Source of the DNA: a virus
DNA length: 38,976 bases
Direction: 5' to 3' (one strand)
Virus record (IMG/VR): IMGVR_UViG_3300022891_000006
Location: 1-38,976 of that record
The first letter of the stretch is position 1, and the number at the start of each line of letters is the position of its first letter. The notes below the pieces were generated by a model. The model was not told the DNA's origin. It worked only from the letters and a program-made list of their open reading frames with translations, and did not search any database. Both the position numbers and the translations under genes were made by a program. Below, piece by piece: positions 1 to 37,242 of the stretch.

Positions 1-417
1 GTAGTGAGCCATCAGGGCCTTGCAGCCCCGGTGGTAGGCGTTCATCTGCACCGTGGGCCAGTCGCCGACCGTGCCGGGCACGCCCTTGGCCTCGGCCTCG
101 ATCCCGATGCGGTGAGCGTTGCCGTACTGCGGGGCCTTGCTCACCCCGGCGTGGTAGCAGAGCCCGGCGGCGATGACCCGGTACACACCGTCCTTGCGCA
201 ACAGTAGTTGCGCCAGTGGGCCTTTCAGTCCGGGCCTGCCGTCGCGGACGACGGTCCGGCTCGGCTCCACACCCTTGGCTCCGCCGTTCGCGGTGTGGTG
301 GCAGGTCACTCCGAGCACATCGACCATCGCACCGTGGCCGCGCTGTTTCCAGCCCGGCTCCTCGATCACGACGAGTCCGGCCGCACGCAGAACGTCGGCC
401 AGTTGGGTCAGCATCAT
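1..417 (-). CDS. Endolysin, N-acetylmuramoyl-L-alanine amidase (3' end outside window)
   Basis: Peptidoglycan hydrolase expected to cleave the bond between N-acetylmuramate and the stem peptide at lysis. The frame is open from ATG at 417 to the window edge (139 residues seen). It carries Amidase_2-type signatures: TCHHTAN near residue 38 (first zinc histidine), a YHAG motif near 90 and IGIEAE near 104. A GAGGAGA Shine-Dalgarno sits 8 bases before the first ATG of an ATGATG pair, and the upstream gene's TGA lies inside that pair, so translation is coupled. The two upstream membrane proteins complete a lysis cassette. The C-terminal cell-wall-binding part is not in the window. Function is inferred from family motifs; bond specificity is not shown. 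Confidence 0.85.
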   Translation of the reverse strand, partial: MMLTQLADVLRAAGLVVIEEPGWKQRGHGAMVDVLGVTCHHTANGGAKGVEPSRTVVRDGRPGLKGPLAQLLLRKDGVYRVIAAGLCYHAGVSKAPQYGNAHRIGIEAEAKGVPGTVGDWPTVQMNAYHRGCKALMAHY

Positions 418-806
418 TCGGGGGTCTCCTCTCCCAAGGTGCGCCGCTGTAATGAATGTACGTGTTCGAGCAAACTGTTGTATCTCGCAGCCGCCTGATC
501 CCGTTCCAGGCGGATCTGCGCCTCAAGCCTGGCGATGTCCGCGTACAGCCGGGTGCGCTCGTTTGTCCACTCGGCTCGCTCGGCCGCGAACCGCAGCCGT
601 TCCTCGGTGAGGATGACACGGATGCGATCGTTGTCAGCCTCCAATTCATCGCGCGCTCGCGCGACCGTTGCCACTGAGGCGTCCACTCTGCGCATCTCCT
701 TCGGGATTCGATTGCGCCAGGCACTCATGCCGTCGTAAGCCAACTTGAGCCCACCACCGGCGGAGAAAATACTGAACAGGGCGATCCACGGTTCAATTTG
801 GGGCAT
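414..806 (-). CDS. Membrane-anchored coiled-coil protein of the lysis cassette
   Basis: 130 residues. One short hydrophobic segment at the N-terminus (about residues 5-20, PWIALFSIFSAGGG) is followed by a long charged heptad-like region (about 40-115, rich in Arg, Glu, Ala), so it should be an inner-membrane protein with a cytoplasmic or extracellular coiled coil. It lies between a multi-pass membrane protein and the endolysin, which suggests a holin, antiholin or spanin-like accessory role; that is inference from position. I chose ATG at 806, which overlaps the upstream gene by 14 bases; the frame stays open to 941, but the extension is basic low-complexity sequence lying inside the upstream gene. 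The stop overlaps the endolysin ATGATG. Confidence 0.75.
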   Translation of the reverse strand: MPQIEPWIALFSIFSAGGGLKLAYDGMSAWRNRIPKEMRRVDASVATVARARDELEADNDRIRVILTEERLRFAAERAEWTNERTRLYADIARLEAQIRLERDQAAARYNSLLEHVHSLQRRTLGEETPE

Positions 807-1275
807 CGGGGGCCTGTGCCTCGTTGTCGTTGTCGATGCGGCGTCTTTCCTTGCGCCGGGCTGCCTCCTCTTCTCGGAGCCACCACCCACGCACGAAACA
901 CACTGCCGCCATGATGAACAGGAAACCGGCAATCGCGCCACCGCTACGCCACCCCGAGGACGCCATGATGGCGGCCCCGTACGCGGCTAGAATCGCTCCG
1001 AACGCCTGCATCCCCGAGGCGACCATCACGTTCAAGCGCAGAACGAGTCCGAGCAGAGTCATGACCGACGATGCGCCCATGAGCAGTGCCCAGCCGATTT
1101 CAAGTTCGTTGGGTAATCTCTGCAATGCCGTTGAAGGTGGTTCTCCTGCAATAGCGTTCGCCGCTGCGAGCACACCCCAGAGAATCATTCCGAGTTCTAG
1201 CGGGTATTCGCCCATCACTGATGGGACGGTCCTCGCGAGAATCCGTCGCCTGGTTCGCGCGCGCCACGTAGGCAA
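793..1275 (-). CDS. Four-helix membrane protein, candidate holin
   Basis: About 160 residues with four hydrophobic stretches (roughly residues 27-43, 61-80, 82-106 and 112-131) and a strongly charged C-terminal tail (EEEAARRKERRRIDNDNE). A small multi-pass membrane protein next to an endolysin is the usual place for a holin, but no holin family motif is recognised. The start is uncertain: TTG at 1275 has GGAAGG 7 bases upstream and lies 14 bases after the tail gene stop; ATG at 1215 would drop a basic 20-residue N-terminus. Spacing favours 1275. It should act in the cytoplasmic membrane to time lysis. Confidence 0.7.
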   Translation of the reverse strand: MPTWRARTRRRILARTVPSVMGEYPLELGMILWGVLAAANAIAGEPPSTALQRLPNELEIGWALLMGASSVMTLLGLVLRLNVMVASGMQAFGAILAAYGAAIMASSGWRSGGAIAGFLFIMAAVCFVRGWWLREEEAARRKERRRIDNDNEAQAPDAPN

Positions 1276-2012: not shown

Positions 2013-3103
2013 GCGATCTCCTCGCAGCGCAGCCGGATGTGTTCTCCCTGGCCAACTTTCAGGGGAATGGTGGCGGAGATGACGCGCCACAGACCGGACG
2101 TGCGTGAGCGTGGGTCGACGATTTCGATGACGTCGTCGATGTCGTGGCCGGGATGTCCGCTGACGGTGATCTCGCATCCCTGCTTGATCTTGACCTCGCG
2201 GTCGTAGATGATCTGCGCGATGTCCGTCAACTGCGGCACCGTGCGGATGCCTTCGGTGAAGTAGCCGTAGGGCCTGCGCCCGAAAGGCCCGTCCGAGTAG
2301 GTGGGGCTCGTCGGGTCGGTGTCCCAGATCTCGACCCTGACCGGCGCTTCGTCGGGGTGCTCGCTGCGGGCGATGACACCTGAGTACGAGTCGCGAGCGG
2401 TGAAGTTCCGCGCGGACGTCATCAGCATGGACGTCACGCCGGGCCGGTACGTCCAGCCGGTCAGCACGTCCGTCTTGGGCTCGATGACGAAGGACCCCAG
2501 TTGATCGAAATAGCAGATGAGCCCAGCGTTTTCGGCGAGTTTCCGGATCGCGTCCCACGGGTCGGAGAGCCGGTCGAACACGAGTTCCGGTGTGGTGTAA
2601 GCGGTCGGGGTGACCCGCATGGGGATACCGGGCATCCGGTCGGTGAAGATGGCGGCGACGGCTGCATGTGTCAGGGTGTCCTTGGCGACCACCCAGGGGT
2701 CCTCGAACCGGCGGTAGCGCAAGGCGTCGACCCGGTCGAAGCCCTTGATCTCGATAACGGTGCCTTCGGAGTGCGAGCGAACCTCGGGCTTGTCGACGCC
2801 GAAGACTCCCATCGGCACGTACTCGTACTGGTAGTTCACCATCAGGCCCCGGTAGAGCCGGATCTCGGTTCCCTTGGGGGACAGCAGATCGTTAGCGCTG
2901 GCCGGGGTGAATACGCCATCGGCGTCCACGATGGTGAAGTTGCATTCACGGCGCACTGATTGGTTGTCCATGGTGATGTGCCCGGAGACCATGGTGTCGA
3001 GGCTGGTAACGACGTCGTTGCCGAAGAGGACTTCGATCCGGGTCGACCAGATGCGGCTGTTCGATTCGAGGGCTTCCTTGAAAGCCGTTGTCGTCTCCCA
3101 CAT
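2009..3103 (-). CDS. Minor tail protein, DUF5047-like tail hub protein
   Basis: 364 residues. The sequence resembles the actinophage minor tail family often labelled DUF5047: an N-terminal beta domain with RRECNFTIVDADG, then TEIRLYRGLMV and EYVPMGVFGVDKPEV, followed by a segment like a baseplate hub (WDAIRKLAENAGLICYFDQLG). It probably forms part of the tail tip below the tape measure. ATG at 3103 comes one base after the TGA of the large minor tail gene, so translation is probably coupled; the frame is open further upstream but that overlaps the neighbour. No catalytic motif is visible. Confidence 0.8.
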   Translation of the reverse strand: MWETTTAFKEALESNSRIWSTRIEVLFGNDVVTSLDTMVSGHITMDNQSVRRECNFTIVDADGVFTPASANDLLSPKGTEIRLYRGLMVNYQYEYVPMGVFGVDKPEVRSHSEGTVIEIKGFDRVDALRYRRFEDPWVVAKDTLTHAAVAAIFTDRMPGIPMRVTPTAYTTPELVFDRLSDPWDAIRKLAENAGLICYFDQLGSFVIEPKTDVLTGWTYRPGVTSMLMTSARNFTARDSYSGVIARSEHPDEAPVRVEIWDTDPTSPTYSDGPFGRRPYGYFTEGIRTVPQLTDIAQIIYDREVKIKQGCEITVSGHPGHDIDDVIEIVDPRSRTSGLWRVISATIPLKVGQGEHIRLRCEEIA

Positions 3104-3104
3104 C

Positions 3105-6100
3105 TCAGGCCCCGATCTCGACGTAGTTGACATCGATAATCCGGTGCCGGTTCTCCGCGATGTTGTAGTCACGCTGAATGAGCCGGATGGAATACACCGC
3201 CCCCGCTGGTGTTTGAGCGATCATCGGGACAACTCGCCTGAGAATGCCTACCACACGAACGATGTCACCGGCGAGTACGTAGATGTTCAGCACACCCCGC
3301 GCACCATGGATACCTTCAGTATCCACGATCGGGAACTCCCGGCCGGACGGGTAGTGCACCGACGACGACTCGTCATCGCTGCGCTTGTGCCCGACGACCC
3401 AGGCGTTGAACTCGCCCAGTTCATCAGCGGGATCACGGATCGCCCAGACCTGCGAGTCGAGCAGAAGCGTTGCCACCAATGAGGATGCGGACGACAGGAT
3501 GGCACCGAAGCCAGGGTCGACCTCGGTGTAGGCGCGGTACTTGACGTCGATCCCGAACGGCATCAGCCGGTCGGTGGCGGTGGCGCGCTGCGCGAGGCTG
3601 GGCTTGAGTCGTTCGATGATGGTGGTCCAGTTCTCGCCGCCGTCGATGGAGCGCTGCACCCGCAGGGTCTGGGTGCCGGAGTAGCCCCCGGGGCTCCATT
3701 GCGTCGACCGGCCGGGGGAGAACGCCGGGAAGGCGAGGTAGAACTGCTCGGCCGCCGCGACCGCGCCGAGGATCTCGACGACAAGCCGACCGAGCATCGC
3801 TCCGACTGGGGCCACGGCGCTAAGAACCGCGTGCGCGTACGCCGTGCTGTCGACGACGACCTGATCCGAAACGTCCTCCGAGACAAGGCTTCCGGTGCCG
3901 TCGTCGGCGTCGTACCAGCGGATGCGGATGCGGGCCGCGCGGGTGGCGGCGACTGCTTTCAGGGACGCCATGCCGGTGTAGGCGACGCCGGGCACGACGG
4001 GGAAGCCCAGTGGCGCGGTCAAGGCCGGTTGCCCGAACGGGGCTTCCGGCGGGTCGCCGAGTTCGGTCCGGATGCCCATCAGACCCGAAGCGATCGAGGT
4101 TAATTTAAGCCCTGCGTATATCTGTGCGCCGGTGTCGGCGGCCTGCGTCGCGATGGTGGTGTTGGTGTCGTTCTCCCAGCCGCCGAGGCCGGTGTCCTGC
4201 TCGGTCGTCAGGAACGACGACTGCGCGGTGAGGTCCATGCGGATGTACGGCACGTCGGTGTCGTACGAGACAGCGTCGGACACCTCGATCAGCGGGCCGG
4301 TCGGCGGGGTCACCGAGATCGTGAAAGGCGTGTAGTCCCAGGGGCTCGCCACGGCGGTGCTGCTCGTGGACCGGACGTAGGCCCGGTACGCGGTGCCGTT
4401 CGTCAGGGACAGCGCCACCCGGTGCTGGCGGGCGATCGAGGAGTTCACCACCCCGCTGCTCCACACCCAGCCGGTCGGGTTGCTGTCGTCGATCCCGGCG
4501 GCCTCCGCCAGAATCCGCACCTCGTAGGACGCCTGCGCGTCCAGGCCCGTGTAGTCCCAGGTGACCAGCGGCGTCGTCTCCCCGTACACCAGGCCCACCG
4601 GCGCGGTGACGGTGACGACCGGCGACGCCGTGCCGACGACGGTCCGATCGGTCGCCCAGGCACTGTCAGCGCCCGTGGACGACCGCGTGCGGGCCGACCA
4701 GGTGTAGGTGGTGCCATTGGTCCACTTGCCCGCTGCGAAGGGCGCAGAGGACGGATCTGAGCCGCTGGAGGTGTTCCAGACGATGCTGCCGCCCCAGGTC
4801 TGCGCACCGGCGTTCCAGTACTCGGTCGTGACCCCATAGACCCGCCGGAACGCCCACGCCTGCTGGGTGTCCCCCGGGCTCACCGGGTTGTACGTCCACC
4901 GGAACGTCACCCCGGCCGCGAGGTCCAGGTTCGCGCCGGACGCGGGGAACGTCAGCGTCGGCGCGGCCGGGGAACGCACCAGGGCCGCCAATTGGCTGGA
5001 GTAGATCGCCCACGTCGTGCCGGAGCCGGTGGCGTAGATCATGTCGACCGAGTCGCGGGTGGGGTGCTTCACCAACTGCACCTTGCCGTCGTCGGCCGAC
5101 GCGGTGCGGGTGATCGCTACCGCCCACGCTGACCAGGTGTTCGCTCCGCGAGTGAATTTCGACCACCGGACGTCCCCATCGGTGGCGTCGTAGTAGGCCA
5201 GGTAGACGTCGTCGGTGTCCGGGTCGACGGACAGACTGAGCCCGAGCACGGTGCCGGTGCCGCCCGGCGCGGCCGGAGGGTTGCGGGCCGTGACCGTGGT
5301 GACGCCGTCCCATTCGGAGCACAGGATCGTGCTGGTCCCCTCCGACCACGCGATCATCATCCGGGAGCCGTCCCACGCCTGTGTCAGCGTGGTCTCGTCG
5401 ATCTGCGCGGAAGCGTCGATACTGACCGGCGCGTCCCAAGTCCACGAACCGGCCGAGTACACAGCGCGGTTCGCTCTTAGCGCCGAGGCCGCACCCTGAA
5501 CACTGGTGGTGAAGTAGACATGTGGGCTCGCCGCCGCTGTCTTGCCGTCACCGGTGTGGTTGAACTCCAGCGAGCCGAACTGGTAGTTGACCGCGCCGGT
5601 CGGCGGGCCGTGCTGGGTGCTCGTCACGCTCAGGGCACCGCTGGCACTGATGGACACCTGCGCGACCTTCGCCCCGCCGGTACCGGCGAGCCCGTACGAC
5701 ACCCACGCCTTCCAGCCGGACCCGACGCGGAACGCGACCACGTCGGAGTCGACGCCGGTCCGGCCGGACGCCGGGCTGATCGTCAGGTACGTCCACACCC
5801 AGCCGCCGCCGGTGACCGGCGTGCCCCGCGCGTACCGGACGACCTGAGGGTTGCTGTCCCACTTCACCCACGAAACGTGCGCGTACCCGTCGACATCGAT
5901 GTAGAACGAGGGGACGGCGCTGTTCTGCTCCAGCGAGATGTCCGACGCCACATAGGACCACGTCGCCCCACCGTTGGCGGACTTGAAGAACTTCGCGGTG
6001 CCGGGCGACCCGGCGGACACGATGAGAGCCCAGAGTGTTCCGTCCGGCGCGATGTCGACGCGCTTCTCCGCCGAACCCTGAAGGGAGTCACCGGTATTGC

Positions 6101-6131: not shown

Positions 6132-9100
6132 TCATCGTCTGCGGGTCGCGGACAGCAGTTTCTCTGCCAGTTCATCGCTGGCGTCGTCGAACGCATCGCG
6201 TGCGTCCTTCGGATCAACTCCGTCACCGACCTGCACAACGACCGCGCCCTCGCTGACCGTGATCGTAACGCCCCCGCCGTCGCCGGACCCGGACAGGTTC
6301 GCGGGTGTCCCCTCGGTGATCCCCGCGAACGCGGCCTCCGAGTTGAACTGCAGGGTCATCAGGTCCGCGAGATCCCGTGCCGACGCTTCGACGTCGCCGG
6401 TCCGTGACCGGATGCCCTCGGCGAGGTCTTCCGAGAAGTGGCGACCACGGATCATGGTGTAGCCCTCGCCGGACAGTGGGCCGGTCTCGGCCGGGCTGCC
6501 GGGCAGCAGGGCGGTGATCCGGCCGATGGCTCCCTCGACCGTGCCGACCACGCCACCGATGCCGTTGGCGATACCGCGCCCGAGAGACGCCATCATCGCG
6601 GCACCGGCGGCGAGGAACTGCCCAGCCAGACCACTGACGAGGCTGACCGCCTGCGACGCGAACGACGCGATCGCCGACAGTGCGTTGCTGACTCCGGCCT
6701 GGATCGCCGACACGAAGTTCGACATCGCCGACCGGATCGCCGACACCATGCTGGCGAACCCGGACGTGACCCGGCTGACCATGCTGGAGATCCACGACGT
6801 GATCGCAGCGGTCACTGTTGCGATCATCCCGGTGATCGCTGATTGCACGGCGCTGATCGCTGAGCGGGTGATCGATGTGACGGTGTTCCAGAACGCAGTC
6901 CACGAACCAGTGACCCGGGTGATGAACCCGCTGATCGCTGCGCCGATGTTAGCGATCCACGCGGTGATCGCTCCGGTGATCGCTGAGATCGCTGTCGTTA
7001 CGCGCGTTCCTAGCGTGTCCCAGAACGTCGACCAGTTGGACGTCACCGACGCGATGAAACTGCCGATGATCGAGATCACTGTCGCGACCCACGCGGTGAT
7101 CGCTCCGACGATCGCTGTGATCCGCTCCGCCACCGTCCGGCCGATCGCATCCCAGAAGGTGTTCCAGATGATCGCTACACCGTTGGCGAACGAGGTGATC
7201 GCTCCGGTAATTGTTGAAATCGCCACGCCGATCACGGTGGTGATCACGGACCAGGCCAGGGACACCGGCCCGTCGAACGCCTGCCACAGCGCGTCCCAGA
7301 TCGCCTTGATCACCGCGACCTGGATCATGATGATCCCGACGATGACGGCGAGCGCCGCGCCGATGATCGTCTGCACCAGGAGCCACGCCAGTTCGACGAC
7401 GGCCCCGAAGACCATCCAGAAGCCGTCCCACGCCGCTTTCAGGATCGCCAGCCCGGCGCTGAACAGGGCCTGAATGATGGCCCAGGCTGCGGAGATCAGC
7501 GCGCCGACCACCGCGAACGCGAACTGCACCGGCGGGCCGAGGATGGCCCAGAAGGCGTTCCAGACACCCATCACGATGGCAATGTAGGTGGTGAAGAGGG
7601 TGGAAATAATCGCCCAACCGGCGCTCACTAATGCGGAGGCGATCGCGAACGCCGCCTGAATCGGCGGGCCGAACACGCCCCAGAAGGCGTTCCAGACGGC
7701 GGTCACCACCGCGACACCGGCGGCGAACACGGCCTGCAGGAATCCCCATCCGGCGCTGACGACGGCGGTAACGATCCCCCACGCCGTGGACGCGACGGTC
7801 GACAGGGCTGACCACAGCGTGTTCCAGATCGCTACGGCGATCGCTACGCCAGCAGTGAACAGGCTAGTGATCAGTGACCATCCGGCAGTGATTACCGATC
7901 CCACCGTTGTGATCGCTGTCTGCACCGGTCCGGGGAGCGCGTTGAAAATAGCGGTCCAGATACCGAGCAGCATGTCGAGCCCGGCCTGAGCGATCATCTG
8001 CAGTCCGGCCATGACGGCGGACCAGTCACCAGCGATCAGCCCGGCGAAGATCGTGAGGACGCCCCGGATCGCTGCGAGCGCACCGGAGATGATCGACGTG
8101 ATCACTCCCCATGCCGTGCTCACGATGGCGCTGAGGACCGGCCAGATCGCGCCGAACACCGCGAGCATGATGCCCGCGAACACGGTGACGGCGGTGGCGA
8201 TCCTGTCGAACGTGGTCTGGAAGACCGGCCCGAACTCGGTGATCCAGGCGCGGGCCTTGCCGATCTCGTCGGCGATGAAGTCGCCCATGGCGGCGAACGC
8301 CGGTGCCAGCACACCCATGATCGCGTCGAACACGCGCTGACTGGCGGCCCAGAACGCCTGCACGTACCCGACGTACGCGGACACCACACCGTTGACGATG
8401 TTGCGGAAGGTCTCGAAGTGGACGTATGCCGCGATGAAAGCGCCGACCAGCAGAAGGATTCCGCCGATGATGGCTGCGGCGACACCCCCGATGAGGGCGA
8501 TGGCGGCGATCACGGACAGAATCGGGCCGATGATGTTGATGGCAGCGGCGGCCAGGCCGACCAGCGCGATGACCATGCTCGCGAGTGCGGGGTGCGCATC
8601 CTGGAAGGCGGAGAACAGTTTCAGCAGGTTGGTCACGATGACGAGGACTGCCGCGCCGACAGGTGCGGCGGCCTGTACGAGATCGCCGAAGGTGCGGACG
8701 AGTTGGCCGATGAAGTCGAGGACGATGCCGGTGCTGGCACGGATGTAGGCCACGAAACGCTGGAAGGCGTCGTTGGTGTCGAGGCTCTGCGCCCACCTCG
8801 CCCACCCGCCGGTCATGGTGACGAGCCCGCCCATGAAGTCCCCACTGAGGGGGATGAACGCGGAGACGAATCCGGCGAACACACCGATCAGGTTGCCGAT
8901 GACCTTGCCGATGTTCTCCAGCATCGACTGGGTGTTGATGCCGAGTTCACCGATGAACTGTTGCCAGAACGGGCCGTTGAGCGCATTGAACGCCGCTGTC
9001 TCCAGTCCACGGAATGCGCCGATGGCCCCGTTGATGATCGGGGCGAGGCTGGGGAGAATCCCGGCGATGCCGAGCAGTCCCTCTGAGGCGATCCGGAAGA

Positions 9101-9968
9101 TGCCCGGCTCGAACTGCCCGGCGAAACTGGCCCACGTCGACTGGAATTCGCGCAGGGACTTCAGGGCAGCGGCTTGCGAGGGGGTCAGCGAGTCCCAGAT
9201 CGCTTTCATCTTCGCGAGGGCCTTGTCTTTCTGGTCCTCGGTCACGGCCTGGTTGTACTGCTTCTGCGCTGCGGTGAGGTCCTTGTTCGCGGCCAGCACG
9301 TCGTTGTAGACGGTGGTGGCGACCGCGCCGAACAGGGCGGTCGCGATACCGGCGATGCCGAACGCAGAGCCCAGCCCGACGACCGCGCCGGTCGCTGCGC
9401 CGCCGAGGGGGATCAGCGCGGGGCCGAGGAGGAGCGCGGCGGCGGCGAGCGCGGACACGGACTGTCCGGCGGCGCGAGTGGTGGTGGCGAGTTGCTGAAG
9501 GCTGGCGTGGGCTCGGTCGGTGTCGACCTCAATGGTGACTTTCTTGTCACGCAGCGCCGCTAGTTCGGCTTCGAGCGCGGCGACCTCTTCGGTGCCGTCG
9601 ACATCCACCTCGACGGTGATCTCTTCGTCATGCAGGGCCGCTACGCGGGCCTCGTACAGCACGAGTTGCGAGTCGTCGATGACGATCTCGGCATCGATGA
9701 TGATCTCTTCAGATTCGAGTCGGGCCAGTTGTGAGCGGGCCGCCAGGTCGTCGAGATCCACCTCAATGGTGGCGGTGTCGCCGTCCAGGTCCGCGAGGTC
9801 TTCCTTGAGACCGAACAGATCCCGGACGGCGTCCGCCACGTCGGCGTCAACGTCGATGTCGACGTCGTCGCCTTCCATCGACTTGATCAGCGCGTCGAGT
9901 GCCATCAGTTTCGCGGTGGCGTCATCCTTGGCGTCGATCTTGACGTCGAGTTCGGCGACCGTTGGCAC
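6132..9968 (-). CDS. Tape measure protein
   Basis: 1278 residues, the longest gene in the window. It sets tail length and lies in the tail lumen; at about 0.15 nm per residue it predicts a tail near 190 nm. The N-terminus has four acidic beta-like repeats (VDIDVDAD, TIEVDLDD, ITVEVDVDG, VTIEVDTD, residues 35-150), then hydrophobic segments (about 165-215, 440-510) and a long series of Trp-containing helical repeats (IWNTLW, VWNAFW, AWDGFW) between 600 and 1000. The C-terminus carries the PGSPAETGPLSGEGY motif common in tape measures. GTG start with AAGGGG 7 bases upstream. It follows the tail assembly chaperone frames by 3 bases, the classical arrangement. Confidence 0.95.
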   Translation of the reverse strand: MPTVAELDVKIDAKDDATAKLMALDALIKSMEGDDVDIDVDADVADAVRDLFGLKEDLADLDGDTATIEVDLDDLAARSQLARLESEEIIIDAEIVIDDSQLVLYEARVAALHDEEITVEVDVDGTEEVAALEAELAALRDKKVTIEVDTDRAHASLQQLATTTRAAGQSVSALAAAALLLGPALIPLGGAATGAVVGLGSAFGIAGIATALFGAVATTVYNDVLAANKDLTAAQKQYNQAVTEDQKDKALAKMKAIWDSLTPSQAAALKSLREFQSTWASFAGQFEPGIFRIASEGLLGIAGILPSLAPIINGAIGAFRGLETAAFNALNGPFWQQFIGELGINTQSMLENIGKVIGNLIGVFAGFVSAFIPLSGDFMGGLVTMTGGWARWAQSLDTNDAFQRFVAYIRASTGIVLDFIGQLVRTFGDLVQAAAPVGAAVLVIVTNLLKLFSAFQDAHPALASMVIALVGLAAAAINIIGPILSVIAAIALIGGVAAAIIGGILLLVGAFIAAYVHFETFRNIVNGVVSAYVGYVQAFWAASQRVFDAIMGVLAPAFAAMGDFIADEIGKARAWITEFGPVFQTTFDRIATAVTVFAGIMLAVFGAIWPVLSAIVSTAWGVITSIISGALAAIRGVLTIFAGLIAGDWSAVMAGLQMIAQAGLDMLLGIWTAIFNALPGPVQTAITTVGSVITAGWSLITSLFTAGVAIAVAIWNTLWSALSTVASTAWGIVTAVVSAGWGFLQAVFAAGVAVVTAVWNAFWGVFGPPIQAAFAIASALVSAGWAIISTLFTTYIAIVMGVWNAFWAILGPPVQFAFAVVGALISAAWAIIQALFSAGLAILKAAWDGFWMVFGAVVELAWLLVQTIIGAALAVIVGIIMIQVAVIKAIWDALWQAFDGPVSLAWSVITTVIGVAISTITGAITSFANGVAIIWNTFWDAIGRTVAERITAIVGAITAWVATVISIIGSFIASVTSNWSTFWDTLGTRVTTAISAITGAITAWIANIGAAISGFITRVTGSWTAFWNTVTSITRSAISAVQSAITGMIATVTAAITSWISSMVSRVTSGFASMVSAIRSAMSNFVSAIQAGVSNALSAIASFASQAVSLVSGLAGQFLAAGAAMMASLGRGIANGIGGVVGTVEGAIGRITALLPGSPAETGPLSGEGYTMIRGRHFSEDLAEGIRSRTGDVEASARDLADLMTLQFNSEAAFAGITEGTPANLSGSGDGGGVTITVSEGAVVVQVGDGVDPKDARDAFDDASDELAEKLLSATRRR

Positions 9969-10662: not shown

Positions 10663-11679
10663 CTACAGTGTGGCCGTGGTCGTGACTACCTCGATCGTGA
10701 ACGACTTGCCAGCGCCCCACGATGCGTCGTGAGTGGCCTCGAACGTCCACTCGACACCGAACACGCCGTCCTCGTCGCTGAGTTCGCCGACGTCCGAGAC
10801 CTGCCCACACAGATCGATGGTGACCGAGTGGAAGATGTCATCCTCAGGGTCGGCCGCCTCGTAGATCCTCGGCCCGAACGCCTGCAGCCGCATGTAACGG
10901 TTCTCGCCGTTGCGCATGGCTTCGAGGGACTCCATGCCCTGCGCGTTGGCTTCCTGCGTGATCTTGAACTCGACGGTGGGCTCGACCTCGATCGTCGCGG
11001 CGAACGACGCCTGCGCGGCGTCCACCACCCACAGAGGGCTGAACCGGTCGGTGATGTTGAACTCGCCCTTGAGGGCTCGCAGCAACTTCGTCTCACCGAT
11101 GTCCGCGTGGGCTTCGTCGAGGTAGACGGACAGTTCGGACGGCCGGACCGGGATCTGGGGCAGGCTCGTCGGTGAACTGGTGAGGGTGACGCCGTCCTGG
11201 ATCGCCCGGCCCAGAACGGAGCCGCCCAGTTCGATCTCGTCCCGAGACCAGTTCCAGGTGTACTCGGTGAAGATGGAGTTGGCCATCCGGTGAGCCCGGA
11301 CACCTGACCCCTGCTCGATCGTGTACGTCTTCGGCGCGTCGTCACCAAAAGTGTTGCTGGTAAACGTGTGCCGGTACGCGCCGGTCGGTGTGGCACTGTC
11401 CATGATCTGAGCGATCGTGGGAGTGTTCACCGACGAGGCGAAGGCGTACGGCAGTTCGGGGTAGACGGCGAGGCCCTCGACCTTGGCCTCGGTCCACTCC
11501 TTGCCGAGAATCTGCAGGCTGGCGTATTTCTGACCGGCCGGGAGCAGTTTCTTGATCGTGGTCTTGGGACCGAACTTGAATCCCATGGAGCCGAGGCGCT
11601 TTCCGGCAGCAACAGCCGTGCCAGGCGTCGACTCAACTCCGATCTGTGCTGACTGGCTGATAGTGCTGCGTTCCGCCAC
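10663..11679 (-). CDS. Major tail (tube) protein
   Basis: 338 residues. Position directly before the chaperone pair and a beta-rich sequence (for example YTIEQGSGVRAHRMANSIFTEYTW, split over two strands; VTIDLCGQVSDVGEL) with a GTAVAAGKRLGSMGFKFGPK N-terminus fit actinophage tube proteins that stack as hexameric rings. GTG start at 11679 with AGGAG 6 bases upstream. A hairpin follows the stop, as usual for this highly expressed gene. It is separated from the upstream glycoside hydrolase gene by 36 bases. Confidence 0.85.
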   Translation of the reverse strand: MAERSTISQSAQIGVESTPGTAVAAGKRLGSMGFKFGPKTTIKKLLPAGQKYASLQILGKEWTEAKVEGLAVYPELPYAFASSVNTPTIAQIMDSATPTGAYRHTFTSNTFGDDAPKTYTIEQGSGVRAHRMANSIFTEYTWNWSRDEIELGGSVLGRAIQDGVTLTSSPTSLPQIPVRPSELSVYLDEAHADIGETKLLRALKGEFNITDRFSPLWVVDAAQASFAATIEVEPTVEFKITQEANAQGMESLEAMRNGENRYMRLQAFGPRIYEAADPEDDIFHSVTIDLCGQVSDVGELSDEDGVFGVEWTFEATHDASWGAGKSFTIEVVTTTATL

Positions 11680-11715: not shown

Positions 11716-12930
11716 TCAGTGTGCCAGAGCGAGGATCTGCGCTCGGTACGCAGCCGCACTCTTGGGGTTGACGGTCGGACGGCCTTCGCGAGTGGTCAAC
11801 TGCGACTGAATGTAGCCAGCCTCTTCGTCGAACCAGGCGTCGTAGGCAATGGTGTTGGCGGGCTTCGACTTCAGGAAGTTGAAGACGTGATTGACGTACC
11901 GGTCATTGTCGCCTCCGGCGTGGCCTTCCCACTGGCAGCCACCGAAGTTGCAGGCGACACCCCATTCGGGAAGCGCGAACTTCTTGCCGTTCGCGACTGC
12001 GTAGTTGTAGGAGTCAGTCAGCGAGCGGTAGGCGTCGCGCCGAGCGGCGTCATTGGACGCGGTGATCGGCTCCCAGGCGTCGTAGTAGTCGATGCCATAG
12101 GTGTCGACGTTCGCCTTGACAGCCTGGAACACACCGCGAACATCAACGTCGGTCTGGTCACCACCCCAGTTGGGGTTGAACGTGACAGTGCATCCGGGAC
12201 ACGCGGTGTGGATAGCGATGGCCGCCCGGTTGAATGCGGCGATCCACGCGGTGCGGTTGCCAGGGTTGACGTGCCAAGCGCTGGAGGGGAGGTTCATCTC
12301 CCAGCCGAGCCGGACATCGGTGCGCGGGTCCATCGCTTCGACGCGGTTGGCCCATGCGGTCCATTGGGAATTGTAATTCGTTCCGACAGCGCCGTTTCCG
12401 GGCCAGAGCGGCATGGCGAACGACAGTCGGCCCTTACCTGCGGTGCCGAGGTATCCGTCCGGGATCGGCTCGGTGTATGCCCAGTTGTCGTTCAGCGCCG
12501 TCCAGTTGTCCCGTGCGGGGTGGATGACGATGATGTCGACAGGCTTGCCGCGCATCGACTCGAAAGCGGTGACGTTGACCGCGCCTTGCCACTGTGGGTT
12601 GGTGCCGGACAGCCACGGCATCCCACTGCGGTTGGTGCTGGCCGGGGGTGGCGTGGTGGTCGGCGGGACCGTGGTCGGCGGAACCGTGGTCGGTGGCACG
12701 GTCGTCGGAGGGACGGTGGTCGGCGGAGCCGTGGTGGGGGGGGGGCTGGGAGTGGCCAGGCTGTCGAGGTATGCCTTGATGACGGCCTGGTCGGTGTCGA
12801 TGTGCGCGAGCGCGGCCTGTGCCTGCTCGCGCGTCGGGGCCGGGTCATCGGCGTTGGCGAGCGTGGCCACGCCGAGCGTGAGGGTGGCGACTACTGCAGC
12901 CGCCGAGGCCCAGATTCGTTGCCGGTTCAT
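11716..12930 (-). CDS. Secreted GH26-like glycoside hydrolase in the tail operon
   Basis: 404 residues. Residues 1-27 form a Sec signal peptide (basic MNRQR, hydrophobic core, cleavage expected near LANA). A Pro-Thr linker with five tandem PTTVP-type units spans about residues 60-100. The rest resembles a glycoside hydrolase family 26 TIM barrel: RLGWEMNLP carries the likely acid/base Glu and KFALPEWGVAC the likely nucleophile Glu; HVNPGNRTAWIAAFNR and FNPNWGG are also family-like. Predicted substrate is a beta-mannan or similar host-coat polysaccharide; substrate is inference. ATG at 12930 has AGGAG just upstream and follows the previous stop by 7 bases, so it is firmly part of the structural operon. 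An ATG at 12948 lacks a ribosome site. Confidence 0.85.
   Translation of the reverse strand: MNRQRIWASAAAVVATLTLGVATLANADDPAPTREQAQAALAHIDTDQAVIKAYLDSLATPSPPPTTAPPTTVPPTTVPPTTVPPTTVPPTTTPPPASTNRSGMPWLSGTNPQWQGAVNVTAFESMRGKPVDIIVIHPARDNWTALNDNWAYTEPIPDGYLGTAGKGRLSFAMPLWPGNGAVGTNYNSQWTAWANRVEAMDPRTDVRLGWEMNLPSSAWHVNPGNRTAWIAAFNRAAIAIHTACPGCTVTFNPNWGGDQTDVDVRGVFQAVKANVDTYGIDYYDAWEPITASNDAARRDAYRSLTDSYNYAVANGKKFALPEWGVACNFGGCQWEGHAGGDNDRYVNHVFNFLKSKPANTIAYDAWFDEEAGYIQSQLTTREGRPTVNPKSAAAYRAQILALAH
12640..12745 (-). repeat. Tandem 15-bp repeats encoding the PTTVP linker
   Basis: Five to six imperfect 15-bp units (plus-strand form GTGGTCGGCGGAACC) encode the Pro-Thr linker between signal/N-terminal segment and the GH26-like domain. 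Copy number is likely to vary by slippage. Confidence 0.85.
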
Positions 12931-12937
12931 GGTGCTC

Positions 12938-13375
12938 CTATTGGTCATGCGAGGCTTGGATGCGATAGATCCCGCCGAGGTGCCGGTATTGCTGTCCGGC
13001 TTCTACTTCGGGGTACTCGATGATGCTTTCGCGGACCGTTGTCAGTGATCCGCCCGGGACGGTGATGTTCGTGTGCGGCCGGTGCAACAGTGCGTGGAGC
13101 CTCGTAGCGATCGGGTTGAGGCTGTCCCATCCCGAACTACGATCGACGGCCTTGACCGCGTAGAGGCAGTCTCCCATGACCTCTACTCCGCCGACCCCTA
13201 GCACATCGCGGTGGCTCTGCATGAGGAAGGTGACGTACGGCAGGTCCGGCGGCCGGGCCGACAGGGTGTAGGAGACCCGGCCTTGCACGAGGTCCGTCAG
13301 GATGTCGTCGTTCGCGAGCAGGTCATAGAGCCACGGCGCTATGATCCCGGTCGTCAGAATCGGCTTGTCGGTCAT
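12938..13375 (-). CDS. Tail terminator / tail completion protein
   Basis: 145 residues. Place in the order (after gp10-like protein and before the tube protein) and a sequence with DLPYVTFLMQSHRD and RLHALLHRPH resemble tail terminator proteins (DUF3168-like), which cap the completed tube before head joining. ATG at 13375 overlaps the upstream stop as ATGA. No ribosome site is needed if translation is coupled. The family assignment rests on position plus weak similarity. Confidence 0.7.
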   Translation of the reverse strand: MTDKPILTTGIIAPWLYDLLANDDILTDLVQGRVSYTLSARPPDLPYVTFLMQSHRDVLGVGGVEVMGDCLYAVKAVDRSSGWDSLNPIATRLHALLHRPHTNITVPGGSLTTVRESIIEYPEVEAGQQYRHLGGIYRIQASHDQ

Positions 13376-27172: not shown

Positions 27173-27420
27173 AGCACCGAGGCAACGCACCACAGAGTGG
27201 GCAACGCCAAGGTGTGCACCACACACCACGCACTGCGGACACACGCTCACCAGGGCCTCTGTGGATGCACTGCAGGTGAGGCACCACAGCACAGCACGCA
27301 CAGCACACGCTCACCCATCACTCACCAGCACACATGCACCATGCACAAGGGTGCTCCCACAAGGGGGTGCTTCCAGGAAGGGGTGCCTCCAGAGGGGTGC
27401 CTCCCACGAAAGGCCCGACC
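27173..27420 (+). other. GCA/CAC-rich leader with GGGGTGCCTCC repeats
   Basis: Leader of the exported protein gene: almost free of long frames with sense, rich in CACCACA and GCAC words. Just before the gene, four imperfect copies of GGGTGCTCC/GGGGTGCCTCC occur between 27351 and 27408 at about 14-17-base spacing; purine-rich parts could compete as ribosome sites. GAAAGG 7 bases before GTG 27421 is the likely real one. Confidence 0.4.
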
Positions 27421-27801
27421 GTGAACCTTCGCACCGTAGCCAGCACCGTTGCCGCAGTCGCCGTACTCGCCTTCGGCGTCGCCACCGCCCCGGCAGAGGC
27501 TGCCAAGCCCGCCGCCCCGAGTTGGGCTCCCGCAGGCTCGAAAGCCTGCCCCGCAGAGGACTCCCCCGGCCCGTGCTACTGGGATGCCGCCAAGCGTGGC
27601 AACCGCAAGGGTCAGACGTTCTACGTGACCCGTGACCAGCGTGTTGTCCGCACTGCCGACCTGTGTGTGGTGGCAGCGACGCAGGCCAAGTTCAAGATCA
27701 TCACTGAGGACGCCGCTGTCAAGGTGTGCGTCCGTACCGTCCGCACCGACGCCGACGCGAAGCGGGCTTACCGCTACGCCGCTGTGCGAGCCATCGGCTA
27801 G
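27421..27801 (+). CDS. Exported protein with signal peptide, unknown function
   Basis: 126 residues. N-terminus MNLRTVASTVAAVAVLAFGV followed by ATAPAEAA is a Sec signal peptide with cleavage near AEA. The mature part (about 98 residues) is small and basic with four Cys (ACPAED, GPCYW, DLCVV, VKVCVRT) that could form two disulfides outside the cell. Contains FYVTRDQRVVRTADLC. Not recognised. GTG start at 27421 with GAAAGG 7 bases upstream; it is the one gene of this block with a Shine-Dalgarno and long leader rather than a leaderless start. The next promoter follows its stop by 3 bases. Confidence 0.75.
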   Translation: MNLRTVASTVAAVAVLAFGVATAPAEAAKPAAPSWAPAGSKACPAEDSPGPCYWDAAKRGNRKGQTFYVTRDQRVVRTADLCVVAATQAKFKIITEDAAVKVCVRTVRTDADAKRAYRYAAVRAIG

Positions 27802-27804
27802 GGC

Positions 27805-27840
27805 TTGACAAGTCGGTGGCTGGGGTGCAATGATTGCACC
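27805..27840 (+). promoter_or_regulatory. Leaderless promoter/operator cassette, copy 1
   Basis: TTGACA (27805-27810), 18 bases, AATGAT (27829-27834), six bases TGCACC, ATG at 27841. The palindrome GTGCAATGATTGCAC (27825-27839) covers the -10. Predicted start of transcription is the A of ATG. Confidence 0.8.
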
Positions 27841-36735: not shown

Positions 36736-37242
36736 TCAGGCTTGCTCGAACAGCGAGACCTCTTTGACCGCGAAGGTGTCGGTCGAGAACTTGTGCAGCA
36801 CGGTGACCGCCGACTCGGCACCGGCCCGGTCGAGGCAGATGCCGACCGGGTACTCGTCGTAGCCGCGCACCAGCAGGAAGCCGACCGGGTCACCGTCAGC
36901 CTCGGCGACCGGCCGGGCAACGCCGATCTTGTGCTCGGTGAACCGGTCGCTGAGGGCGGCGAACCGGTCCTCGTCGTGGCCGAGGTCGCCGTCGCTCAAG
37001 TACTGGATCTTGTTGAGCATCCACTCCATGTCGGCGTTCGGGACCTGGATGCTGTCGGCCACCGGCGTGGCCACGAACGGCTCCTGCGGGCCGACCATGG
37101 CCGTCCGCAGCCGCTCGTAGGCGGCGACACCGTCGTCACCGAGGAACTCGTCGGCCAGGTCGCCGATCTTGCTGAACAGGGTGCGGATGTCGTTCGCGTC
37201 TACCTGGATCATGGTGTCCATCTCCTTGTTCGTCGTCGTCAT
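36736..37242 (-). CDS. MTTT-family protein on minus strand, 168 residues
   Basis: MTTTNKEMDTMIQVDANDIRT then helical LFSKIGDLADEFLGDDGVAAY, PNADMEWMLNKIQYLSDGDL and a beta C-terminus VGFLLVRGYDEYPVGICLDR with FAVKEVSLFEQA. Not recognised. Start 37242 is fixed by the canonical cassette on the minus strand; the frame open to 37278 would translate the promoter. The 37-bp repeat follows its stop. Confidence 0.8.
   Translation of the reverse strand: MTTTNKEMDTMIQVDANDIRTLFSKIGDLADEFLGDDGVAAYERLRTAMVGPQEPFVATPVADSIQVPNADMEWMLNKIQYLSDGDLGHDEDRFAALSDRFTEHKIGVARPVAEADGDPVGFLLVRGYDEYPVGICLDRAGAESAVTVLHKFSTDTFAVKEVSLFEQA

Follow-up and report, generated by a model that had tools for sequence, protein, structure and literature searches.

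A gene lodged between two tail genes of a soil bacteriophage encodes, as judged by sequence profiles and a structure model, a divergent relative of glycoside hydrolase family 26 (GH26), and the junction in which it sits is, by sequence comparison across related viruses, a cargo site for glycoside hydrolases. The window analysed, a 38,976-base virus record, carries its late operon (terminase, portal, capsid, connectors and tail) on the minus strand. The hydrolase gene reads from an ATG at 12930 to a stop at 11716 (Table 1). The original prediction had a gene in this interval and a glycoside hydrolase in the tail operon, both of which are confirmed, and its gaps of 7 bases to the upstream gene and 36 bases to the downstream gene agree with our measurements; it overlooked the minus strand (the plus strand across 11716-12930 is nonsense for the GH26-like protein), the role of the junction as a cargo site and the relatives found in lysis cassettes. 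The downstream gene is also preceded by AGGAG. The labels tail terminator and tube are assigned from gene order plus weak matches, and phrog_290 itself is annotated as a minor tail protein. The hydrolase gene lies 11.3 kb from the phage's own endolysin gene, so that it does not adjoin the endolysin and possible holin here; the PHROG search with the latter membrane protein gave no match of weight.

Table 1. Features of the hydrolase gene and its surroundings in the window.
Feature	Coordinates	Strand	Basis
GH26-like glycoside hydrolase gene, predicted to be exported, 404 aa	11716..12930	-	ORF and 66%-identical syntenic homologue
Predicted Sec-type signal peptide, residues 1-27, AxA site after A27	12850..12930	-	sequence, heuristic score
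N-terminal helix module, residues 28-58, EQAQAALAHIDTDQAVIKAYLDSL	12757..12849	-	motif recurrence; predicted helix 34-58
Pro/Thr-rich linker, residues 59-101	12628..12756	-	sequence
Catalytic (beta/alpha)8 domain, residues 102-404	11719..12627	-	AlphaFold2 pLDDT 95.5; CtLic26A match
Codon E211, predicted acid/base (GWEMN), just after strand 4	12298..12300	-	aligns with E of HEAN, CtLic26A
Codon E322, predicted nucleophile (PEWG), strand 7	11965..11967	-	aligns with E of AEF, CtLic26A
Shine-Dalgarno AGGAG of the hydrolase gene	12935..12939	-	overlaps TAG stop of the upstream gene
Putative tail terminator, upstream neighbour	12938..13375	-	Tail_completion_gp17 E 0.031 (below cut-off); order; conserved in relatives
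Putative major tail tube protein, downstream neighbour	10663..11679	-	phrog_290 E 0.0059; order; 82% in L019
Tape measure protein, same operon	6132..9968	-	phrog_58 E 1.1e-49
Endolysin, cut by record end	1..417	-	phrog_880 E 2.3e-30
Membrane protein, possible holin, adjoins endolysin	793..1275	-	hydrophobic sequence and position only

Elsewhere in the window, GCAATGATTGCACCATGAC occurs in twelve exact 19-base copies, against 0.01 expected from shuffles: on the plus strand at 27827, 28301, 29171, 29679, 30192, 30476, 31262, 31879 and 32180, and on the minus strand at 37238, 38054 and 38812. Its ATG could serve early genes as their start codon, and together with the preceding GT it contains the inverted repeat GTGCAAT-G-ATTGCAC. 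The repeat resembles an operator or regulatory element associated with gene starts; some mycobacteriophages have comparable start-associated sequences.

The family assignment depends on collecting relatives. Used alone, the window protein gave no useful match in Pfam (0 families), NCBIfam or a phmmer search of the PDB, and a single match in PHROGs at E 0.052; in a tblastn search of 50,697 phage records neither it nor the tube protein found a match, and the catalytic domain of the relative L005 found none there even at E 10. GH26 Pfam profile PF02156 gave no match to the window protein above the curated cut-off, with 15 of the 47 family members matching at E <= 0.01; the GH5 profile PF00150 likewise gave no match to it, with 4 of the 47 at E <= 0.01 and the relative L002 at E 0.0031 (below the cut-off). 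A profile of 47 rows, made up of the window, 19 of 20 viral contigs (L018 omitted) and 27 of 79 bacterial loci, retrieved GH26 structures, with the Clostridium thermocellum enzyme CtLic26A as the best match (E 8e-23) and other GH26 enzymes after it. The AlphaFold2 model built from this alignment matches CtLic26A with a Z of 25.5 and an rmsd of 2.6 over 262 residues; the top nine rows of the structure search are all GH26 or GH26 fusion chains (Z 22.3-25.5), the first non-GH26 row scores 19.6, and row 10 is a Vibrio xylanase that we take to belong to GH26. Both predicted catalytic glutamates are kept in all 47 rows; their CtLic26A counterparts are the acid/base and the nucleophile of that enzyme. 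The residue before the acid glutamate is Trp in 47 of 47 rows, a count biased by the use of GWEMN-containing patterns in collecting members, instead of the His usual in GH26 (HE[MA]N), and three relatives at the tail site do carry His. Because Trp replaces the usual His, we regard the window protein as a divergent GH26 relative, subject to the profile and the model. The GH26-like domain with GWEMN and PEWG glutamates of the original prediction is thus borne out by the family profile, the model and the alignment of both glutamates; the profile search that it proposed came close to contradicting it when run with the window protein alone and supported it when run with the family, and the structure prediction gave the expected GH26-like fold.

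A second virus, L002, has a 66% identical hydrolase gene in the same position, retaining leader, helix and linker. The catalytic domain gives a dN/dS of about 0.15 (NG86; dS about 1.2, near saturation, so the value is rough) and the helix module 0.12 (window versus L002, dS near saturation), values that point to purifying selection on the catalytic domain. The 66% identity in place, the dN/dS of the catalytic domain and the presence of eight GWEMN-type enzymes at the same junction argue that the gene is more than a chance reading frame.

Upstream of the catalytic domain, the leader MNRQRIWASAAAVVATLTLGVATLANA, followed by DD, combines K/R residues with a hydrophobic core and an AxA site. In a simple hydrophobicity/AxA script used in place of SignalP (mean Kyte-Doolittle value over 12 residues) it scored 2.13, the highest value among 25 window proteins from the late region; next came terL at 1.89, with no K/R before the core, and the portal at 1.51. 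All 11 GH26-type proteins at the junction carry such an AxA leader: eight of eight of the GWEMN type by the script and three of three of the HEMNG/HEYNG type (L124 and L125 scored, L168 by eye). At the same site a leader is absent from the GH18-like protein of L126, the only one of its kind with its 5' end, and from the GH6 protein of L216; in the lysis cassettes described below, L005 and L024 have a leader and L011, L031 (scored under L013, same contig) and L032 do not. Since leaderless members occur at both sites, neither location always goes with a leader. The signal peptide and Pro-Thr linker that had been predicted for the window protein hold up, and the recurrence of the leader in the GWEMN-type proteins supports predicted export; the original interpretation is thus supported in part, for the fold and the export signal. 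Another leader-like protein is encoded at 27334-27801 on the plus strand, where an internal start would give NLRTVASTVAAVAVLAFGVATAPAEAA and then a small Cys-containing domain.

The helix of the N-terminal module was predicted in a low-confidence model (the first AlphaFold job, with 3 sequences and pLDDT 45.8), which was not used further. Its motif recurs in L002, L005 and L024. Pattern searches for this module on other enzymes gave 5 and 16 matches. Among 13 loci inspected for the N-terminal motif, L142 is another leader-bearing relative and L148 has the motif within a 46-residue frame with no enzyme; the remaining 11 look like chance and were set aside. Scans of bacterial genome contigs with N-terminal patterns found 0 relatives, and catalytic patterns did find relatives. 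A chromosomal GH26-like protein of Kineosporia rhizophila (L051:5677-6861) has the helix motif SPTQQQALDANQTVRNYILAHPD as in the phage enzymes, which suggests gene exchange.

The junction was scanned from the tube gene, first in 20 loci and then more widely, where 80 loci were retained out of 170 relatives; together with the window these make 81 tube-bearing records. Ten of the 80 loci have a gene matching the GH26 profile, three a GH18-like gene, 64 a gap of less than 400 bases, and three (L216, L169 and L218) something else. The junction gene of L216 encodes a GH6 enzyme (PF01341 E 3.9e-38), with no terminator found upstream, and the 425-base gap of L218 contains an ORF of 104 aa. In L169 the junction gene is encoded on the other strand (2373-3269, minus) and specifies an HNH endonuclease (PF01844 E 6.6e-5), possibly a homing endonuclease. 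Glycoside hydrolases therefore occupy the junction in 15 of 81 records (window included), other inserts of more than 400 bases in 2, and nothing in 64, although near-repeats lower the independence of these counts (L127 repeats L126 over their shared part, and L203 and L204, also numbered L129 and L130, gave identical rows). The 15 comprise eight of GWEMN type, three of HEMNG/HEYNG type (L124, L163 and L168), three GH18-like and one GH6. The domain of L124/L125 is homologous to the GWEMN family (hhalign probability 99.67). The GH18 label is based on weak chitinase matches (best E 0.0012) and a DGxDxDNE motif, and the GH18-like profile, built from L123 and L126 themselves, gave no match to the GWEMN family. 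In a tree of 33 of the 81 tubes, empty and occupied junctions are intermixed, with the empty L121 inside a clade of GWEMN carriers. In L119 (2713-3969) the junction backbone is nearest L022, the catalytic domain is nearer the window (44% versus 38%) and an Fn3 domain is absent; this mismatch points to domain shuffling.

In five other viruses a gene of the same family lies directly after lysis genes. L005 has an endolysin (phrog_1493, E 2.1e-8) followed by phrog_4565 and phrog_3798 proteins, L031 an endolysin (phrog_880, E 6e-35) followed by the same two families, L032 an endolysin (phrog_880, E 5e-37), L011 a phrog_1512 match (E 7e-14), and L024 a holin (phrog_443, E 8e-5) with a presumed endolysin that gave no PHROG match. 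Queries with the window's late genes found no match in these five loci at E 1e-4. In the catalytic-domain tree (38 of the 47 profile rows plus L119), the L024 enzyme nests in the tail-site clade (100/100), and that of L005 groups as sister with chromosomal enzymes of Micromonosporaceae (99/93). In L012/L030, a tail-like protein of 1349 aa has a relative fused to its N-terminus. We found no published account of this arrangement in a literature search conducted mostly without subscription journals, and we regard the cargo site, together with its connection to enzymes of lysis cassettes, as new here.

Several observations bear on the host. The nearest bacterial relatives are secreted actinobacterial (Micromonosporaceae) enzymes, 38-45% identical for the first six. 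A capsid search of 22 genomes with relatives returned one prophage, in the Winogradskya consettensis genome, with 45% (terL), 56% (portal) and 57% (capsid) identity to the window's head genes; its tail is mostly different, with one tail gene at 28%. The tail region of this prophage also encodes a GH5 cellulase domain (L159:19094-19900, PF00150 E 1.5e-27). The tube profile matched 1 of 354 Micromonosporaceae genomes, in which the slot has no hydrolase, and 0 of 394 genomes of the class. Together these give a hint of a Micromonosporaceae host.

From this material we infer the export, catalysis, substrate, timing and benefit of the enzyme, and we place about even confidence in a role in which a late exported glycosidase clears host-surface or matrix glycan around the host at lysis or egress. 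The hydrolase would be expressed late and sent out through Sec by the infected actinobacterium; its leader would be cleaved, and the helix-linker-catalytic protein would build up in or outside the cell wall during virion assembly, where it would cut a beta-linked glycan around the host such as exopolysaccharide, matrix or surface glucan/mannan. Once holin and endolysin burst the cell, progeny would be free of the surrounding matrix and of receptor-bearing debris. The enzyme would be an accessory lysis/egress-type enzyme placed in the tail operon, its family swapped among phages as host glycans differ. Such a role is favoured because late expression of a glycosidase that could reach the outside, by leader or by lysis, is common to both locations. 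We count for it the fold and glutamates, the leaders of the GH26-type junction proteins, the lysis-cassette relatives, the nesting of L024 and the excess of hydrolases over other junction inserts; against it stand the distance to the endolysin, the leaderless members, the tail-like fusion, and the resemblance that GH5, GH6, GH18 and GH26 may also bear to a soil-polymer toolkit.

The main rival to egress is environmental polymer use, the usual interpretation of soil viral glycoside hydrolases in the sections available of PMC6460857, PMC6786970 and PMC10127799. The exported enzyme would then be an auxiliary metabolic one that digests environmental beta-mannan or glucan and feeds the host through a prolonged infection or lysogeny. 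The families found at the one site, together with the GH5 domain of the Winogradskya prophage, are soil-polysaccharide families, the closest bacterial relatives are secreted, viral GH26 genes are counted as auxiliary in soil virus papers, one of which predicts Actinobacteria as hosts (PMC6460857, in part), and one viral GH5 has been shown to be an endomannanase (PMC6786970, in part); but placement in a late structural operon or lysis cassette would bring the enzyme shortly before the cell dies, and we consider this explanation unlikely.

The tail-gene neighbours, the leaderless relatives (including the tail-like fusion) and the leaderless GH18-like and GH6 proteins at the same junction would also suit a depolymerase built into or loaded on the tail and acting at entry, with the leader misleading or export partial. 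This is rather improbable, given the AxA leaders in every GH26-type tail-site protein and the lack of any junction gene in 64 of 81 records, which indicates that the hydrolase is not a needed tail part. Predicted export from the infected cell would also suit control of superinfection or re-adsorption, in which the enzyme strips the infected cell and its debris of a glycan receptor, and swapping of hydrolase families at one site would track receptor changes; protecting the cell would require early expression, however, and the operon is late, so that we hold this to be very unlikely.

Returning to egress, two host systems provide background. The polysaccharide sporangium matrix of Actinoplanes missouriensis is dissolved by the secreted GH5 enzymes GimA and GimB, according to the portion consulted of PMC12691653, and in Streptomyces an apical beta-1,4-glycan goes together with the GH6 enzyme CslZ, according to that of PMC9040799. 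A bolder version, which we offer as a doubtful conjecture, is that an uncultivated actinophage lineage reserves the junction for the exchange of exported enzymes that cut glycans, and that such enzymes form a class of lysis partners in addition to endolysin, holin and lysin B; where hosts form sporangia or mycelium, these would open the matrix as the host's own matrix-dissolving enzymes do, so that progeny escape ('viral dehiscence'). Soil viral glycoside hydrolases are usually filed as carbon-cycle auxiliary genes, and the cargo site with its lysis-gene clade provides a testable alternative in which exported hydrolases serve phage release via host glycan. It would also point to the glycans that actinobacterial phages must cross, and it supplies named genes.

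Among known systems, CtLic26A (a GH26 lichenase, PDB 2bv9) is the best fold and profile match, with both glutamates aligned, and differs in its 19% identity and in the Trp that the window protein has for His before the acid glutamate. The secreted enzymes of Dactylosporangium, Actinoplanes and Winogradskya (L035-L042) share 38-45% identity and GWEMN, with a leader seen by eye in L035-L037; unlike the phage enzyme they are chromosomal, and galactose-binding-like (by eye) or other large domains replace the helix module. Soil-virome GH26 auxiliary genes likewise occur in viruses with predicted Actinobacteria hosts, although leaders, cargo site and lysis context are absent from the parts of the description consulted (PMC6460857). 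GimA and GimB resemble the window protein as secreted, leader-bearing glycoside hydrolases that free cells from a polysaccharide matrix; they are GH5 enzymes according to their authors, with a C-terminal galactose-binding domain and a glutamate spacing of 87 versus 111 in the window (PMC12691653, same portion), and we rejected a GimA/GimB type for the window protein on family and glutamate spacing rather than by sequence comparison. The partial text of PMC6116005 offers two phage parallels. Lys44 of fOg44, a secreted endolysin, also has a Sec leader on a late phage enzyme, and differs in targeting peptidoglycan and in being the endolysin itself. Mycobacteriophage lysin B is an esterase rather than a glycosidase and sits in the lysis cassette; like the role proposed here, it adds an envelope enzyme to the endolysin and holin of actinophages.
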